This document shows, one piece after another, positions 8,898 through 27,912 of a stretch of 34,250 nucleotides of DNA. This stretch comes from Acidobacteriota bacterium (lineage in GTDB: Bacteria; Acidobacteriota; Terriglobia; Bryobacterales; Bryobacteraceae). The position numbers and the translations under genes were made by a program. Numbering within the stretch: the stretch's first letter is position 1; every line of letters begins with the position of its first letter. The stretch lies in the NCBI GenBank assembly GCA_016213775.1, contig JACQZR010000282.1, positions 1-34,250 of the forward strand. Reading direction: 5' to 3'. The notes below the pieces were generated by a model, which did no database searches, had not been told where the DNA came from, and worked only from the letters and a program-made list of their open reading frames with translations.

Positions 8898-8927
8898 CCG
8901 GCGGAATCAAACCAGTCCAATGGAAAG

Positions 8928-8961
8928 GCGGACCGTGAAGAACGGGTCCGCTTTTTTTTTT
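8928..8961 (+). terminator. Intrinsic terminator after the TonB receptor
   Basis: A perfect 7-bp stem GCGGACC (8928-8934) / GGTCCGC (8945-8951) with a 10-nt loop is followed by ten T residues (8952-8961). It lies 31 bp after the receptor stop. In the other direction the tract after the stem is only CTTTCC, so it mainly serves the plus strand. Confidence 0.9.
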
Positions 8962-8972
8962 GCGTTTTGAGA

Positions 8973-9353
8973 TCAAGCGGCTGGACGCCTGCGTGTCGGG
9001 CGGATGAGGATTTCAGCGGCAATTCCGAGGTCGGCGGCGAGCCGACGGATCATGGCGAGGGAGAGGCCACGTTTGCGGTTCAGGATTTCCGCAACGCGTG
9101 TACGGGAGCCGATCATGGGTTCGAGGTCTTTGCGCGTTAGGCCCTGCTGTTCCATGCGGAAGAGGATGGCATCGATGGGGTCCGGCGGATCGATGGGATG
9201 GTGCTGGGACTCGTAGGCATCAATGAGGGTGGCCAAGACGTCCAGCCTGTCGCCTTTGGGGGTGCCAGTTGGGGAACCCCAAAGGCGATCGAGTTCCTCG
9301 AGTGCGCGTTCGTAATCCGATTCTGACCGGATGGGTCGCAAACTAGCTGCCAT
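8973..9353 (-). CDS. higA: HigA-type antitoxin
   Basis: This 126-aa protein is the antitoxin and DNA-binding half of a HigBA-type toxin-antitoxin pair. The C-terminal half is an XRE-like helix-turn-helix (about 62-112: FRMEQQGLTRKDLEPM, then RTRVAEILNRKRGLSLAMIR), characteristic of the HigA group; the first 55 residues (RPIRSESDYERALEELDRLW) are the usual N-terminal arm that contacts the toxin. I chose the ATG at 9353 because it sits inside the last codons of higB (11-bp overlap), as expected for coupled translation; in-frame starts at 9365 and 9389 would only add residues that overlap higB more. It should bind HigB and repress its own operon through the palindrome upstream of higB. The C terminus is basic (RPTRRRPAA). 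Confidence 0.88.
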   Translation of the reverse strand: MAASLRPIRSESDYERALEELDRLWGSPTGTPKGDRLDVLATLIDAYESQHHPIDPPDPIDAILFRMEQQGLTRKDLEPMIGSRTRVAEILNRKRGLSLAMIRRLAADLGIAAEILIRPTRRRPAA

Positions 9354-12937: not shown

Positions 12938-13954
12938 TCACAACTGCGAGATTGAGTAGCGCAGGAGGCGGCCTGCGCGGCGGTCGGGGGCAGCAACGGC
13001 GCGCGTGATGAGAGCGGCTTCTTTGACGGCGGCGAGGCGCATCCAACGGTGAAGGCCCGATTCGATGGTTGGGTTGGGCTTCTCGGCGATGGCTACCGGG
13101 ATGGGACCGCCAGTTTCGGGTTCGATGACCAGGGGGATTTCAAAGCCGTTGGAGTCGCGCCAATGGCGGAAGCGTGGAGCGAGGCCGGCATGGGAGGCGT
13201 TGCGGTGGAGCTCGGAGACGGCTTCGCTTTCGAACGCGGTTGCGTGAAGAAAGTGAAGTTTGGGGCGGCGGACGAGACGGCGTCCGAAGTCGAGTGTGGA
13301 TGGCTGGAGCCGGACCGTGAGGAAGCACGAGTCGAGGGCTTGGAGCCAGCGGACGGCGGTGCGGTGGGAGATGACGGCTTCGCGGGCGAGGACCTGCTGA
13401 TCGAGCACCTGGGCGGTGTGCTGCTGGGCGATGGCGAGGAATTCGTAGAAGCGATCGATGTCGTGGAGGTGGATGAGGCTGCGAATGTCGGAATCGAGCA
13501 GGTGGGCGTTGGTGGGCCAGGGTTCTGTTTCGGCGGTCGGTGTGAGCTTGGAAGGCGCGAAACGGCCGATGATATCGAGCGAAAGCGCAGGGCGGCGCTG
13601 GCGTTCGGCGTGCGTGGGGGCGTGAAGTTCGAGTGTTGGGATGGGGAGGGTGAGGCGGAGCGAACTAGCCGCGAGGAGCGGGAGCGCGGTGAGAGGGATG
13701 ATGGCCGCGAGCTCGGGGGCGCGGTGGATGTCATCGAGGATGGTGGGTTGGCGGAGGCGGGAGAGGAATCCTGGCGGATCGCGGCGGGCTCGGGCGCGGT
13801 CGGTTGGGTCGTTCAGGGTGATGTAGAGGTAATCGGGAAACTCACGGAGGAGGAGCGTGGTCTTGCCGCTTCCGCGGGGGCCGTGAAGGAGGACCGGCTC
13901 CCGATCGTGAGCGGCGCGGCGCAGGTTGATGGCGAGGTGCCGTTCCAGGTACAT
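12938..13954 (-). CDS. AAA-type ATPase with DUF4143-like C-terminal part
   Basis: The 338-aa protein carries a Walker A loop GPRGSGKTT at 25-33 and a Walker B-like segment TILDDIHRAPEL at 71-82. These match the bacterial family in which an AAA_14 ATPase is joined to a C-terminal domain (DUF4143). The usual TGSS sensor after Walker B is not evident (LLAASSLRLTLP instead), so ATPase activity may be altered. The function of the family is poorly known; members occur as lone, often horizontally spread genes. The second half contains VISHRTAVRWLQALDSCFLTVRL (around 190-212), the helix-turn-helix-like part of the family, and residues 220-290 resemble its nuclease-like beta core (VSELHRNA, PVAIAEKP). 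The ATG at 13954 lies just downstream of an A/T-rich palindrome. It precedes the glycosidase by 37 bp on the same strand. Confidence 0.75.
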   Translation of the reverse strand: MYLERHLAINLRRAAHDREPVLLHGPRGSGKTTLLLREFPDYLYITLNDPTDRARARRDPPGFLSRLRQPTILDDIHRAPELAAIIPLTALPLLAASSLRLTLPIPTLELHAPTHAERQRRPALSLDIIGRFAPSKLTPTAETEPWPTNAHLLDSDIRSLIHLHDIDRFYEFLAIAQQHTAQVLDQQVLAREAVISHRTAVRWLQALDSCFLTVRLQPSTLDFGRRLVRRPKLHFLHATAFESEAVSELHRNASHAGLAPRFRHWRDSNGFEIPLVIEPETGGPIPVAIAEKPNPTIESGLHRWMRLAAVKEAALITRAVAAPDRRAGRLLRYSISQL

Positions 13955-13976: not shown

Positions 13977-14047
13977 TCTATGCATAGTCAGTTGAGCGTT
14001 TTTCTTGACCCTCGCAGGTGGAGGCTCTTACGCTGAAGCAAGCTACT

Positions 14048-15355
14048 ATGAGTCTCAAAATCGCACCCGCAAAAGGCAAGCTCGGCATTCTGATTCCGGG
14101 CATTGGCGCTGTTTCCACCACGTTCATGGCCGGCGTGGAAGCCGTGAAGAAAGGCTACGGCGAACCGGTGGGTTCGCTCACCCAGTTAGGCACTGTTCGA
14201 CTAGGCAAGCGCACCGACAATCGCGTTCCGCGCATTCAGGATTTTGTGCCGCTGGCGGGGCTGAATCAGCTTTGCTTCGGCGGCTGGGACATCTTTGAGG
14301 ATGACGCCTATGAAGCGGCCTCGAATGCGAAGGTTCTGGAGCCGGCGCTGTTGGAGAAAGTAAAGCCGGCTCTGCGGAAGATCAAACCGATGAAGGCGGT
14401 GTTCGACCGGCGGTATGTGAAGCGGATCGACGGGCCGAATGTGAAGTCGAAGGGCACGCTGGCGGACAAGGCCGAGGCGTTGATGGAGGACATGGCCAAC
14501 TTCAAGAAGGCCAACAAGGCGGACCGGCTGGTGATGATCTGGTGTGGTTCGACGGAGGTTTTCCATAAGCCGGCGAAGGTGCACCAGACGCTCGAGTCGT
14601 TTGAAAAAGGGCTGATGAAGAACGATCCGGAGATTGCGCCGAGCCAGGTGTACGCGTATGCGGCGTTGAAGAGCGGGGTGCCGTTTGCCAATGGCGCGCC
14701 GAATCTGACGCACGATGTTCCGGCGCTGCTCGGGATGGCGCGGGACCGGCAGATTCCGGTTTGCGGGAAGGATTTCAAGACCGGGCAGACGTTTATGAAG
14801 ACGCTGCTGGCGCCGGGGCTGAAGGCGCGCATGCTGGGGTGCTCGGGGTGGTTTTCCACGAATATTCTAGGGAATCGGGATGGGGAAGTGTTGGACGATC
14901 CGGGGTCGTTCAAGACGAAGGAAGAGACAAAGCTGAGCGTCCTGGACCAGATACTGCAGCCGGGGTTGTATCCGCAGTTGTACAAAGACCTGTTCCACTC
15001 GGTGCGGATCAACTACTATCCGCCGCGAGGGGATCAGAAGGAAGGCTGGGACAACATCGATATTTTCGGATGGCTGGGGTATCCGATGCAGATCAAAATC
15101 GATTTTCTGTGCCGCGATTCGATTCTGGCCGCGCCGATTGTGCTGGATCTGGTGCTTTTCCTGGACTTGGCGCAGCGCGCCGGAATGAAGGGGATACAGG
15201 AGTGGCTGAGCTTCTACTTCAAAGCGCCGATGACGGCTCCGGGGCTGTATCCGGAGCATGACATTTTCATCCAACTGATGAAACTGAAGAACACGCTGCG
15301 GTGGATGAAGGGGGAAGACCTGATTACCCACCTTGGGTTGGAGTACTACGATTAG
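14048..15355 (+). CDS. ino1: Inositol-3-phosphate synthase
   Basis: The 435-aa protein should convert glucose-6-phosphate to 1L-myo-inositol-3-phosphate using bound NAD+, the committed step to inositol lipids and inositol-derived solutes. The N terminus holds the nucleotide loop ILIPGIGAVSTTF (14-26, GxGxxxT pattern). Family segments include GGWDIFEDDAYEAA, NLTHDVPALLGMARDR, VCGKDFKTGQTFMK and GCSGWFSTNILGNRDGEVL. The frame is open to a GTG at 14018, but the ATG at 14048 (MSLKIAPAKGKLG) better fits the family; neither has a good ribosome site. TTGACC (14005-14010) with TACGCT (14029-14034, spacing 18) could be a promoter that would leave a leader of only a few bases. No terminator follows directly; the next strong one is 590 bp on. 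Confidence 0.92.
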   Translation: MSLKIAPAKGKLGILIPGIGAVSTTFMAGVEAVKKGYGEPVGSLTQLGTVRLGKRTDNRVPRIQDFVPLAGLNQLCFGGWDIFEDDAYEAASNAKVLEPALLEKVKPALRKIKPMKAVFDRRYVKRIDGPNVKSKGTLADKAEALMEDMANFKKANKADRLVMIWCGSTEVFHKPAKVHQTLESFEKGLMKNDPEIAPSQVYAYAALKSGVPFANGAPNLTHDVPALLGMARDRQIPVCGKDFKTGQTFMKTLLAPGLKARMLGCSGWFSTNILGNRDGEVLDDPGSFKTKEETKLSVLDQILQPGLYPQLYKDLFHSVRINYYPPRGDQKEGWDNIDIFGWLGYPMQIKIDFLCRDSILAAPIVLDLVLFLDLAQRAGMKGIQEWLSFYFKAPMTAPGLYPEHDIFIQLMKLKNTLRWMKGEDLITHLGLEYYD

Positions 15356-15471
15356 GTTTGGTGAGATCCAGTGGGGAATTCGCCCCGATCGTGGGGGTGG
15401 TGCGCAGTGAGATTTGCCCCAAATCGGGCCTTGGAAAACGACGGAGCAAGCGTTTACGGGCTTGGAACGTT

Positions 15472-15487
15472 TGGCATAGGAGTTGCA
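15472..15487 (+). promoter_or_regulatory. Full-consensus sigma-54 (RpoN) promoter
   Basis: TGGCATAGGAGTTGCA matches the sigma-54 consensus TGGCAYRNNNNTTGCW at every specified position; the GG (15473-15474) and GC (15485-15486) doublets have the required 10-nt spacing. The expected start point is about 12 nt after the GC, near 15498. Given the base requirements, about 0.03 such sites would be expected by chance in a window this long on both strands. No convincing protein gene lies directly downstream; the next gene is the broken sulfatase, after a terminator. Confidence 0.65.
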
Positions 15488-15497
15488 TAGTCTCTGT

Positions 15498-15980
15498 TCC
15501 GTTGAGCTTGTATGAGGCTCCACTGACGGTGATGTCAATGGCTCGCAGGCTGTGCCAAAATGCGGAACCCAGCACGGTTACACAGGAACTGGAGTACGCG
15601 GGCGAAGCTTGCTGGAGCCGGACCGTTTGCGACCCATCATCGTGGCGCATGAGCAGCCGCAACACTGGTAAGTCGGGTTGCGGGTGGAGCGGCCCGGTGG
15701 AGCCTCTTTTTGACAGATTTTTTGCTCGCAAGCTGGTAGGCTGTCGGCCATCCGGTGTCCATCATAGCTTTTCATACCCTTATCCGGGTAGGATAAGCCG
15801 CCAGCTTGTGAGCGTGAGTTTTCGTTTTGTGTTGTGAGTCAAGAGTGAGTGTGTGTGTGTGTTCGTTGCGCTCCGCGAGGGTGATTGTGAGAGATCGCCC
15901 CCGTAAGAGAGTGATCCTTTCGCGAGGCCATCTTATGATGGGCGGGAGTTCCGGTTAACGGGCCTCCCGCCATTTTTTTT
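15498..15980 (+). ncRNA. Candidate sigma-54-driven orphan RNA
   Basis: The stretch from the predicted sigma-54 start to the strong terminator is about 480 nt. It holds a 13-bp stem GCTCGCAAGCTGG (15724-15736) / CCAGCTTGTGAGC (15801-15813, one G-U pair), enclosing a further 7-bp hairpin CTTATCC/GGATAAG (15779-15785/15791-15797). A (GT)7 run follows (15849-15862), then GGGTGAT/ATCGCCC and CCATC/GATGG hairpins before the terminator. A 101-codon open frame (15532-15837) exists but has no ribosome site, is rich in Cys, Ser and Arg, and overlaps the big stem, so I doubt it is translated. No known RNA family is recognised. It could alternatively be a long 3' UTR of ino1. Confidence 0.35.
15941..15980 (+). 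terminator. Strong intrinsic terminator
   Basis: An 8-bp perfect stem GGCGGGAG (15941-15948) / CTCCCGCC (15964-15971), with a small inner CCG/CGG pairing, is followed by A and eight T residues (15973-15980). It lies 20 bp before the sulfatase start, so the sulfatase must have its own promoter or depend on read-through. It ends transcription from the ino1/sigma-54 side. Confidence 0.9.
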
Positions 15981-15999
15981 GCGTGCGGGTAGAGGCGGT

Positions 16000-17415
16000 A
16001 TGATCAAGGCCATGGCTTCGCTTACCCGGCGCACCGTACTTCAGTTCGTTTTGGCCTCCCCCGCGGCGGCGCAATCCGCCAAGCCTCGTCCCAACATTCT
16101 TCTGCTACTCGGGGACAACTGGGCGTACCCGCATGCCTCTGTTTATGGGGACCCTGTGGTGAAGACGCCGGCGTTCGACCGGATTGCGAAGGAAGGCGTG
16201 CTGTTCCTGCACGCATACGCTCCGAATCCGTCGTGCTCGCCCTCGCGATCGTTGCTGTTGACAGGCCGGGAAACACACCGGTTGGGGGAAGCGGCAAGTC
16301 TTTATGGCCCGCTGGCGGCGGCGGTTCCTACATATACGGAATTGCTGCACAAGAGCGGGTACCACGTGGGGTTCACGATAAAGGGCTGAGGGCCCGGAAC
16401 GCCTGGGACGCAGTGGGCCAAGAATCCCGCGGGCACCTCGGCGGAAGACTTCGATTCGTTCTTGAAAGGAAAGGCATCGGGGCAGCCGTTCTGCTACTGG
16501 TTTGGGAGCCACGATCCGCATGTGCCATGGAATCGTGGGCAGGAGGGCAAGGCGTCGATGGATGCGGGGCGCGTGAAGGTGCCGGCACATTTGCCGGATA
16601 AGCCTGCCGTGCGCGACGACATCCTCAACTACTACTGCGAGGTGCAGCAGTTTGACAAGGAGTGCGGGGCGATCCTGCGGACGCTGGCGGCGCGGGGCGA
16701 ACTCGAAAACACCGTTGTCGTGGTGACGAGTGACAACGGGTGGCAGATGCCGCGCGGGCTGGCCAACTGTTACGACTTGGGGGTACGGATTCCGATGGCG
16801 ATGCGCTATCCGGCGCGGGTGAAGGCCGGCGAAAGGCGTGAGGATTTTGTTTCGATTGGGGACTTGGCTGCGACCTTTTTGGAAGCGGCGGGCGTGGCGT
16901 TGCCGGCAGGGCTGACCGCGAGCAGCCTGTTTTCGGGGAAGCGGCGGGACGCCATGTTTCTGGAACGCGAGCGGCATGCGAATGTGAGGGCGGGGAATTT
17001 GAGCTATCCCGTGCGAGGTGTGCGGACGCGGGAGTTTTTGTATTTGCGGAATTTTGAGCCGAAGCGGTGGCCGGCCGGGGATCCGGTGCTGGTGTGGGCG
17101 GTGGGGCCCTACGGGGATGTGGATGATTCGCCGTCGAAACGGTTGATCATGGCTGAGAAGGCGCAACCGTACTTTGATCTGTGTTTTGGGAAGCGGCCGG
17201 AGGAGGAACTCTACGATTTGCGAAAGGACCCGGGACAGGTTCGCAACGTAGCTGGGGAAGCGGGGTATGCGAAGGTCCAGGCCGAGCTTGCGGCGAAGGT
17301 GGCGGGTTGGATGAAAGAGACGGGCGATCCTCGCGCTGACGCCCCGCGTACGGACTATTGGGATCGCGCGGCGTATTCCGGGCCGCGGTTTCGGGGGACG
17401 CCGCCAAAGGAGTAA
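16000..17415 (+). pseudogene. Exported sulfatase with one in-frame TGA
   Basis: The reading frame runs 16000-17415 but is interrupted by TGA at 16387-16389. With read-through the product is about 471 aa: a twin-arginine-type signal (SLTRRTVLQFVLASPAAA), the first metal region NILLLLGDN, the Cys-type formylglycine motif CSPSR, GSHDPHVPW, and VVVTSDNGWQMPRG. This is the layout of N-sulfoglucosamine sulfohydrolase-like sulfatases that desulfate polysaccharides. At the interruption the text reads KG-stop-GPG, where I expect KGWGPG in relatives, so a single TGG-to-TGA change explains it; everything after is in frame and looks intact. The Lys usually following MPRxK is Leu here. Start 16000 has GAGG upstream; 16012 is an alternative. 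It is a recent pseudogene, a read-through gene, or a base error. Confidence 0.75.
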
Positions 17416-17509
17416 GTTCGTTGAGTGGCCATAGGCGTCACTATGCGAGGTTGTAAGCGCTATTCGGGAGCGATCTCTCAGGCTCCACGCCGCTCGCGCT
17501 TCGGCGTTG

Positions 17510-22973: not shown

Positions 22974-24176
22974 ATGGAGTTATTCAGGAAAACAAATTTC
23001 GACTTCCTCGGCAAGAAGTGGCCATTCATCATCGCATCGCTGGTATTGACGGTGGCCGGGCTCGGCACCATGGTGATGAAAGGCGGCCCGCGGTATGGGA
23101 TTGATTTCCGCGGCGGCGTGAACATGGCTGTAAAGTTCGTGCAGACTCCGCCCGTGGACAAGGTGCGTTCGGCACTGAGCAGCAAGATCTCGGGTGAGAT
23201 TTCAGTGGTGGAAAACCGGACGGACAACGAGTTGCTTATCGGCACTGAATTGAAGGATGAGAAGGCATTGGACGCGGCCCGGAAGACGATGCAGGAAACG
23301 CTGGCGGCGACGTTCGGCGGGACATCGGGCAAATTGGATCTGCACAACACAGGCGCGCAGGCGCTGGTGGACCGGTTGCGGGATCCGCTGCAACGGGCAA
23401 GCGTTCCGATGAACGATCAACAGTTGCGCGATCTGACGAAGGGGATTCTGGCTTACCGGGATGGGCGTCCGAACTTCGGTATTATTCAGAACCTGGATGA
23501 CCTCGGGAAGGTGCAGGGCGTGACGCCGCAAGTGTTGAACGTGATCAAGCAGGAAGTGGCCTTGGCGCCGTTCGCGATCCGGAACACGGAAGTAGTGGGT
23601 CCGAAGATTGGGGCGGAACTGCGGAATCAGGCAATCCTCGCCACGCTGTACGCGCTCGGAGGAATGCTTGTCTACATTGCATTCCGCTTTGAGTGGATCT
23701 ACGGAGTGGCAGCCGTGATCGCGGTGTTCCACGACACGGTGATCACGCTGGGGCTTTTTTCAATATTTGACAAAGAGATCTCCTTGACGGTGATTGCGGC
23801 ATTGCTTACGCTGGTTGGTTACTCAATGAACGACACGATCGTCGTGTTCGACCGCATCCGGGAGAACTTGAAGCTGATGAGGCGCGAGAAGTTCGAGCCG
23901 TTGGTGAATGCGAGCGTCAACCAGACGCTGAGCCGGACGGTGCTGACATCGAGCCTGACGCTGCTGACGGCCTTGGCGCTATTGTTTTTCGGTGGTCAGG
24001 TGTTGAATGGATTCTCATTCGCTCTAGTGGTTGGTATTATCGTAGGAACCTATTCTTCGATCTTTATCGCGAGTCCGATCCTGATCTACTGGACGAACCG
24101 GTCAGGAGTGCAAGGAAAGGGCAGCGGAGGAGAGAAGGTAGCGACGGCGGCGGCTCCGAAGGCGGTCGCCAAGTAG
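22974..24176 (+). CDS. secF: Protein translocase subunit SecF
   Basis: The 400-aa partner of SecD. It has an N-terminal helix (about 17-34), the SecF signature YGIDFRGGVNMAVKF (41-55), a periplasmic domain and five further helices with GYSMNDTIVVFDRIRENL and SRTVLTSSLTLLTALALLFFGG. It is longer than typical SecF (about 300-320 aa): the periplasmic domain (about 60-210) is enlarged (TSGKLDLHNTGAQALVDRLR and the following segment), and there is a short Gly/Ala/Lys tail. The ATG at 22974 has no strong ribosome site. A GC hairpin (GGGCGG/CCGCCC, 24185-24206) begins 8 bp after the stop, before tonB. Confidence 0.94.
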   Translation: MELFRKTNFDFLGKKWPFIIASLVLTVAGLGTMVMKGGPRYGIDFRGGVNMAVKFVQTPPVDKVRSALSSKISGEISVVENRTDNELLIGTELKDEKALDAARKTMQETLAATFGGTSGKLDLHNTGAQALVDRLRDPLQRASVPMNDQQLRDLTKGILAYRDGRPNFGIIQNLDDLGKVQGVTPQVLNVIKQEVALAPFAIRNTEVVGPKIGAELRNQAILATLYALGGMLVYIAFRFEWIYGVAAVIAVFHDTVITLGLFSIFDKEISLTVIAALLTLVGYSMNDTIVVFDRIRENLKLMRREKFEPLVNASVNQTLSRTVLTSSLTLLTALALLFFGGQVLNGFSFALVVGIIVGTYSSIFIASPILIYWTNRSGVQGKGSGGEKVATAAAPKAVAK

Positions 24177-24184
24177 TCGGGAAA

Positions 24185-24265
24185 GGGCGGTGTTCACAAG
24201 CCGCCCGTGCGTTACCCGCAAGGGACTTTGGCCTGCTGGTGAGGTGGGCGAAAGTGCCGTGCGGG
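24185..24265 (+). promoter_or_regulatory. Structured spacer upstream of tonB
   Basis: After the secF stop a 6-bp hairpin GGGCGG (24185-24190)/CCGCCC (24201-24206) is followed by a nested structure: CCCGCA (24215-24220) with TGCGGG (24260-24265), and inside it ACTTT (24225-24229) with AAAGT (24251-24255). The tonB ribosome site (GAGGAG) lies just beyond. No T run is present, so it is not an intrinsic terminator; a processing or translational control element is possible. Confidence 0.35.
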
Positions 24266-24281
24266 AACTGAGGAGAAAGAC

Positions 24282-25052
24282 ATGTTTGAACAAACCTTTG
24301 TCGACGGACAAGGACAGACGGCAAAGCCCTGGACGGTGTTTGTATCGTTCATCGGACAATTCATCGTACTGGGCATTCTGATTCTGATTCCTCTGATTTA
24401 CACGGACACGCTTCCGAAAGCGCAATTGGCGAGCTTTCTGGTGGCACCTCCTCCTCCCCCTCCCCCTCCTCCTCCTCCGGCAGCGGCCCCTGTAGTAAAA
24501 ATCGTGAAGGTGATTCCGCGGCAGTTTGACGCCGGAAGGCTGATGGCTCCCAAGAGCATCCCGAAAGATATCGCAATGATCAAGGAAGAGGAAATGCCTC
24601 CTTCGGTCGGCGCGGTGGGAGTAGTGGGCGGTGTGCCGGGCGGCGTTCCGGGCGGAACACCGGGTGGCGTAATTGGTGGCATTATCGGATCGGTACCGAC
24701 AGCGGGACCTCCGCCTCCGCCACCTCCGCCAGTGAAGAAAGAAGAGAAGCCGCCGACGCCGCAGCGCATCCGTGTCGGTGGCAATGTGCAGTCGGCGAAA
24801 CTGGTTCGTCAACCGAAGCCGGTATATCCTCCGCTAGCGAAGCAGGCGCGTATCCAGGGTACGGTCCGTTTCACGGCGATCATCGGCAAGGACGGCACGA
24901 TCCAGAATCTGCAATTGATCAGCGGGCATCCGCTGCTGGTTCCCTCGGCCACGGAAGCGGTGAAGCAATGGGTGTATCAGCCCACGTTGCTGAACAACGA
25001 ACCGGTGGAAGTGGTGACCCAGATTGATGTGAATTTCACGTTGAGTAATTAG
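24282..25052 (+). CDS. tonB: TonB-type energy transducer
   Basis: The 256-aa protein links the ExbB-ExbD proton motor to outer-membrane receptors. It has an N-terminal membrane anchor (about 19-40), a run of 11 prolines (56-66), a Gly/Val/Pro linker with repeated GGVPGG-type units (about 112-135), a second proline run (PPPPPPPP, about 143-150) and a C-terminal TonB domain (about 168-256) with PVYPPLAKQARIQGTVRF and QWVYQPTLLNNEPVEVV. The anchor is preceded by about 18 residues and the usual short cytoplasmic start. Both rigid linkers would span the periplasm. The ATG at 24282 has GAGGAG 8 nt upstream. It heads the exbB-exbD genes and serves, by inference, receptors such as the two large ones in this window. 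Confidence 0.92.
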   Translation: MFEQTFVDGQGQTAKPWTVFVSFIGQFIVLGILILIPLIYTDTLPKAQLASFLVAPPPPPPPPPPPAAAPVVKIVKVIPRQFDAGRLMAPKSIPKDIAMIKEEEMPPSVGAVGVVGGVPGGVPGGTPGGVIGGIIGSVPTAGPPPPPPPPVKKEEKPPTPQRIRVGGNVQSAKLVRQPKPVYPPLAKQARIQGTVRFTAIIGKDGTIQNLQLISGHPLLVPSATEAVKQWVYQPTLLNNEPVEVVTQIDVNFTLSN

Positions 25053-27852: not shown

Positions 27853-27882
27853 CTCCCGCGCATAGTCCGGATTCATTTAGAA

Positions 27883-27912
27883 GCGGCGCCCTTTCGGGGG
27901 TGCCGCTTTTTT
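27883..27912 (+). terminator. Intrinsic terminator after the TPR lipoprotein gene
   Basis: A 9-bp stem GCGGCGCCC (27883-27891)/GGGTGCCGC (27898-27906, one G-U pair), with a TTTCGG loop, is followed by six T residues (27907-27912). It separates the third exbD gene from the rest of the Ton cluster, so that gene may be expressed less or from its own promoter. Confidence 0.85.

Follow-up and report, generated by a model that had tools for sequence, protein, structure and literature searches.

The analysed DNA, referred to as the window throughout, is a stretch of 34,250 nt from a genome assembly of 10.96 Mb in 314 contigs. Within it, the candidate stretch lies between a myo-inositol-1-phosphate synthase gene and a broken sulfatase gene and carries a match to the sigma-54 promoter consensus, a sequence predicted to fold and an intrinsic terminator (Table 1). 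The host was judged from relatives of the neighbouring synthase gene to be an acidobacterium near Bryobacteraceae; among the best 80 of 588 matching stretches the labels were mostly Bryobacterales, Bryobacteraceae or Acidobacteria, with a few others. Synthase relatives at E <= 1e-50 were found in 51 of 60 genomes. The listed start of the synthase open reading frame is a GTG at 14018, while its likely start is the ATG at 14048. The sulfatase frame is interrupted by a TGA at 16387–16389, a position at which relatives carry W (12/13) or F (1/13), and the N part of the sulfatase is present in all 13. Either the gene is a genuine pseudogene or the TGA is an error of assembly.

Table 1. Coordinates in the window of the features discussed in the text.
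Feature	Position	Strand	Basis or remark
Myo-inositol-1-phosphate synthase gene, upstream neighbour	14048–15355	+	Pfam PF07994 and PF01658
Opposite-strand open frame, about 130 codons	15342–15731	-	Codon score -0.13
Sigma-54 (-24/-12) promoter match TGGCATAGGAGTTGCA	15472–15487	+	Exact match to consensus
Proposed non-coding transcript, about 483 nt	15498–15980	+	Fold energy; transcription presumed
101-codon open frame, judged not a gene	15532–15837	+	Codon score -0.16
Strongest folded part	15712–15825	+	z -5.2, 0/200 shuffles as good; contains the 13-bp stem
Intrinsic terminator	15941–15980	+	Stem 15941–15971, then A and eight T (15973–15980)
Sulfatase gene, downstream neighbour	16012–17415	+	Pfam PF00884 in both halves

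Gene order around the synthase gene varies. An NAD-epimerase gene follows it on the 3' side in 26 of 29 relatives and is absent from that place in the three closest loci (L041–L043) and in the window, all of which have an AAA/DUF4143 gene upstream of the synthase. In the window this gene (12938–13954) is divergent to the adjoining synthase gene, an arrangement that recurs in at least 16 loci among the best 80 of 588. A sulfatase gene close behind the synthase was seen in the window alone: none of the 29 relatives has one in the 1.5 kb that follow the synthase gene, and one of the best 80 of 588 synthase loci has a sulfatase relative (41%) at a distance of 2.8–3.8 kb on the other strand. These differences indicate that the candidate stretch is part of a lineage-specific junction. 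As the nearest synthase genes are only about 80% identical to that of the window at the DNA level, closer relatives are lacking.

The sigma-54 promoter match and the predicted fold

The consensus TGGCAYR-N4-TTGCW was searched for with exact spacing. The original prediction of a full sigma-54 match was correct in both sequence and position, and the site is the sole exact match in the window; with one mismatch allowed there are 2 matches, against 1.19 expected from shuffles. Judged from the -12 position, transcription would be expected to start near 15498. RpoN is encoded in the genome (PF04552, 190 bits, one match, to the DNA-binding domain). Upstream of the site, at 15300–15475, no clear activator site was found; the region holds two short palindromes and a single direct repeat of 10 nt. 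No activator gene was detected among the window proteins scanned, nor any sigma-70-like promoter by a promoter scan of 14500–17500.

Exact sigma-54 matches number 13 genome-wide. As controls, the reversed pattern gave 8 matches, six wrong spacings gave 49 (about 8 per spacing) and those reversed gave 40, which pools to about 7.5 per spacing, so that the genome-wide total exceeds chance by a small margin (Poisson P 0.04). Reading frames overlapping each site, with 30 of the 49 wrong-spacing sites included, were scored under six rules against codon usage in 15 genes of the window. Between 5 and 9 of the 13 sigma-54 sites were non-coding as compared to 4–9 of 38 control sites (one-sided Fisher P 0.005–0.036 over the six rules), the control figure comprising 0/8 reversed sites under each rule and 4–9/30 wrong-spacing sites; one control site (L209) overlaps a sigma-54 site (L071), so that these two are not independent. 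The window's own site was non-coding under every rule. A sister exact site (L079, 1501–1516) has the start of a gene for a 4Fe-4S protein 28 nt downstream of it and is likely a true sigma-54 promoter of this genome. Another exact site (L073, 748–763) lies about 100 nt before a long frame that, judged by eye, may encode a chromosome-segregation SMC protein.

The non-coding enrichment and the L079 site together suggest that real sigma-54 promoters exist in the genome and that a non-coding exact match has good odds of being one. The promoter in the window is probably real since exact matches are enriched in non-coding DNA. Its odds are lower than those of the sister sites because no gene start with coding-like codon use follows within 400 nt, and the controls imply that about one fifth of the non-coding exact matches (1.8 of 9) arise by chance.

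Downstream of the match, the proposed transcript folds at -201.1 kcal/mol compared to -178.0 kcal/mol for shuffles (z -3.8), and at z -2.4 with the terminator part removed. The strongest part, a hairpin of 114 nt, scores z -3.9 on the other strand, while four further stretches gave unremarkable values (z -2.2, -1.2 and -1.4) and, for the terminator, -4.25. The long-range stem of 13 bp including one G-U named in the original prediction was confirmed at 15724–15736/15801–15813 (13 pairs, one G-U), and both the whole proposed transcript and the hairpin are predicted to fold better than shuffles. Only at this position does the window hold a stem of 13 bp, allowing one G-U, with arms within 120 nt; stems of this size were present in 22 of 60 shuffled windows, at a mean of 0.48 per shuffle. 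Tiling of the plus strand (899 tiles) gave two tiles at z -5 or less, both elsewhere (-5.4 and -5.1), and a tile fitted to the hairpin reached z -6.2 with 40 shuffles. The fold is therefore strong for its place, yet within what a window can give by chance.

The two other strong plus-strand folds (23637–23750, z about -5.4; 24207–24320, z about -5.1) lie at or before a secF/tonB-like boundary. A stem scan with a different outer-pair rule returned a 13-bp hairpin, GTCGCCTTTGGGG/CCCCAAAGGCGAT, at 9249–9289 of the window.

Relatives of the stretch and alternative explanations

No DNA relative of the stretch was found in any of 60 related genomes. The host genome holds no second copy, the best other match being 19 nt, and the stretch was absent from plasmid and phage records; the stem pattern had 0 matches in viral contigs and 0 in the genome contigs database. 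A repeat or mobile element was rejected on these grounds. At the gathering score, Rfam models matched nowhere in the window, and with E up to 5 there were 0 matches in 15340–16020, which rejects a known RNA family. Beside the best 80 of 588 synthase loci, blastn returned nothing below E 0.12, and in the first 1 kb downstream of the synthase a sigma-54 site with one mismatch was present in 3 of these loci and an exact one in 0. A covariance model built from a single sequence (15712–15825) returned one match in 150 relatives (26 bits, E 0.024 per genome), in a genome from another family of the same class (G133), which is judged to be at chance level; it had no match in 91 further loci. Conservation of stems and promoter in relatives, the lack of which had been named beforehand as grounds for rejection, was thus not found, the covariance search included. 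As a refutation of a small RNA this is weak, because 0 of 29 relatives keep the same downstream neighbour and there is no orthologous stretch to compare. A lineage-specific junction is compatible with an RNA gene of recent origin as well as with ordinary junction DNA.

That the stretch is ordinary junction DNA, a recent rearrangement scar or decaying sequence in which the promoter match and stem are coincidental and the terminator merely stops run-on transcripts from the synthase gene, is a serious possibility. The missing epimerase, the stop in the next gene, the failure to find a relative, the share of non-coding exact matches expected by chance and the reduced odds of a site with no nearby gene start would all fit such an origin. 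It accounts less readily for a promoter match, folding and a terminator that follow one another along the same strand over about 500 nt, or for the enrichment of this class of match in non-coding DNA.

The terminator stem has 8 outer pairs (7 of them G-C) and an inner 4-bp helix, and the original prediction of a strong intrinsic terminator stands: it is a good one and points in the right direction. Equally good stems before a T run arose 7 times in 30 whole-window shuffles. A relaxed scan also gives 8922–8957 and 27881–27908, with weaker candidates at 711 and 17007, at a background of about 2 per shuffle, while a stricter scan (loop limit 8) leaves 15941–15980 off its list. The terminators at 8922 and 27881, the two in the window that compare with it, each follow a gene, about 25–30 nt beyond the stop codon; the one at 15941–15980 has no coding frame ending shortly before it, and 31 nt lead from its last T to the sulfatase ATG.

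The order of promoter, structured leader, terminator and gene on one strand is also what would be expected if the sulfatase gene had a long, attenuator-bearing leader driven by sigma-54, the terminator being opened under some condition so that the sulfatase is transcribed. Such a leader is improbable here. A search for an anti-terminator partner rich in G-C found none; the best pairings of 9–12 bases are G-U-rich or chance-like, and an attenuator with an anti-terminator was rejected for want of a good pairing partner. Folding with the terminator helix disallowed is about 20 kcal/mol less favourable, none of 13 sulfatase relatives is preceded by a sigma-54 site with one mismatch or fewer (0.66–1.5 kb upstream covered), and the sulfatase frame is itself broken in this genome.

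Codon scores of the two open frames in the stretch (Table 1) compare with 0.17 to 0.48 for the 15 window genes and -0.20 to -0.64 for the wrong frames of these genes. Neither frame matched a family in Pfam or PHROGs. In 150 related genomes, at E up to 0.1 and with the own genome excluded, protein matches were found in 30 genomes for the minus frame (best per-genome E 0.0014) and in 43 for the plus frame (4.3e-4); they are weak and scattered, many have internal stops, and they appear to be such as chance gives. A short protein from either frame, for which the open lengths of 101 and about 130 codons speak, was rejected as highly improbable on the codon scores, the lack of a family match and the chance-level relatives. 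We accordingly agree with the earlier view that the stretch holds no convincing protein gene, and the proposed check of the 101-codon frame for protein-like conservation gave the same answer.

A candidate lineage-specific transcript and known systems

The best reading of the stretch, put forward tentatively and at somewhat short of even confidence, is a lineage-specific non-coding transcript driven by sigma-54. RNA polymerase with sigma-54, presumably opened by some enhancer-binding activator, would start near 15498, transcribe about 480 nt that are predicted to fold and do not look coding, and end at the terminator (15980). This would yield a stand-alone small RNA that may act on a target by base pairing or protein binding. 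An own promoter, the absence of a protein, an intrinsic terminator and an intergenic position, by which a stand-alone small RNA gene is recognized, are all present here as sequence features.

The exact promoter match, rpoN, the non-coding enrichment, the L079 sister site, the non-coding codons, the folding and the terminator argue for such a transcript. Against it stand the lack of a sequence or structure relative and of an Rfam match, a raw sigma-54 count barely above controls, the absence of a clear activator site upstream and a stem of a size expected about 0.5 times per window. The original prediction of a sigma-54-controlled small RNA hence holds in part: it is borne out in promoter class, RpoN, non-coding character, fold and terminator, and lacks support from conservation of stem and promoter in relatives. 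That the stretch encodes a structured RNA of about 480 nt, of an undescribed family, driven by sigma-54 and confined to one Bryobacteraceae-like acidobacterial lineage, is a more demanding claim, possible and at present rather doubtful.

At present the stretch is one candidate, known from its sequence features, with no relative for covariation. If transcribed, it would provide a sigma-54-controlled regulatory RNA in a phylum for which few RNA regulators have been described, and a case of an RNA gene of recent, lineage-specific origin located where gene order is broken. Among the papers listed by a literature search, none reported a sigma-54-driven structured RNA in the phylum.

The Acido-1, Acido-Lenti-1 and Solibacter-1 RNA motifs are, like the present stretch, candidate structured RNAs of acidobacteria (PMC2864571). 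The stretch differs in having no Rfam match; Rfam numbers are given for Acido-1 and Acido-Lenti-1, and none is shown for Solibacter-1 in the part of that source drawn on here (PMC2864571). In Myxococcus xanthus, Pxr is a sigma-54-linked small RNA of about 108 nt, conserved among myxobacteria and located downstream of the sigma-54 response regulator gene nla19 (PMC5568312). Going by this description, the candidate is set apart by its length of about 480 nt; whereas Pxr is conserved and lies beside nla19, searches found no relative of the candidate, and none of the window proteins scanned is an activator (PMC5568312). CrcZ and CrcY of Pseudomonadaceae have RpoN-dependent promoters, and CrcZ, as the source describes it, lies behind the gene encoding its activator, CbrB, and acts on Hfq/Crc (PMC6292655). 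The candidate resembles these RNAs in its predicted promoter of the same kind; unlike CrcZ, which adjoins cbrB, it lacks both an Rfam match and an activator gene among the proteins scanned (PMC6292655). As far as these sources describe them, Pxr and CrcZ/CrcY make sigma-54-driven small RNAs a known kind (PMC5568312, PMC6292655), and to call the candidate a 'new' regulatory RNA, as the original prediction did, is too strong a wording for what would be a further member of that kind.
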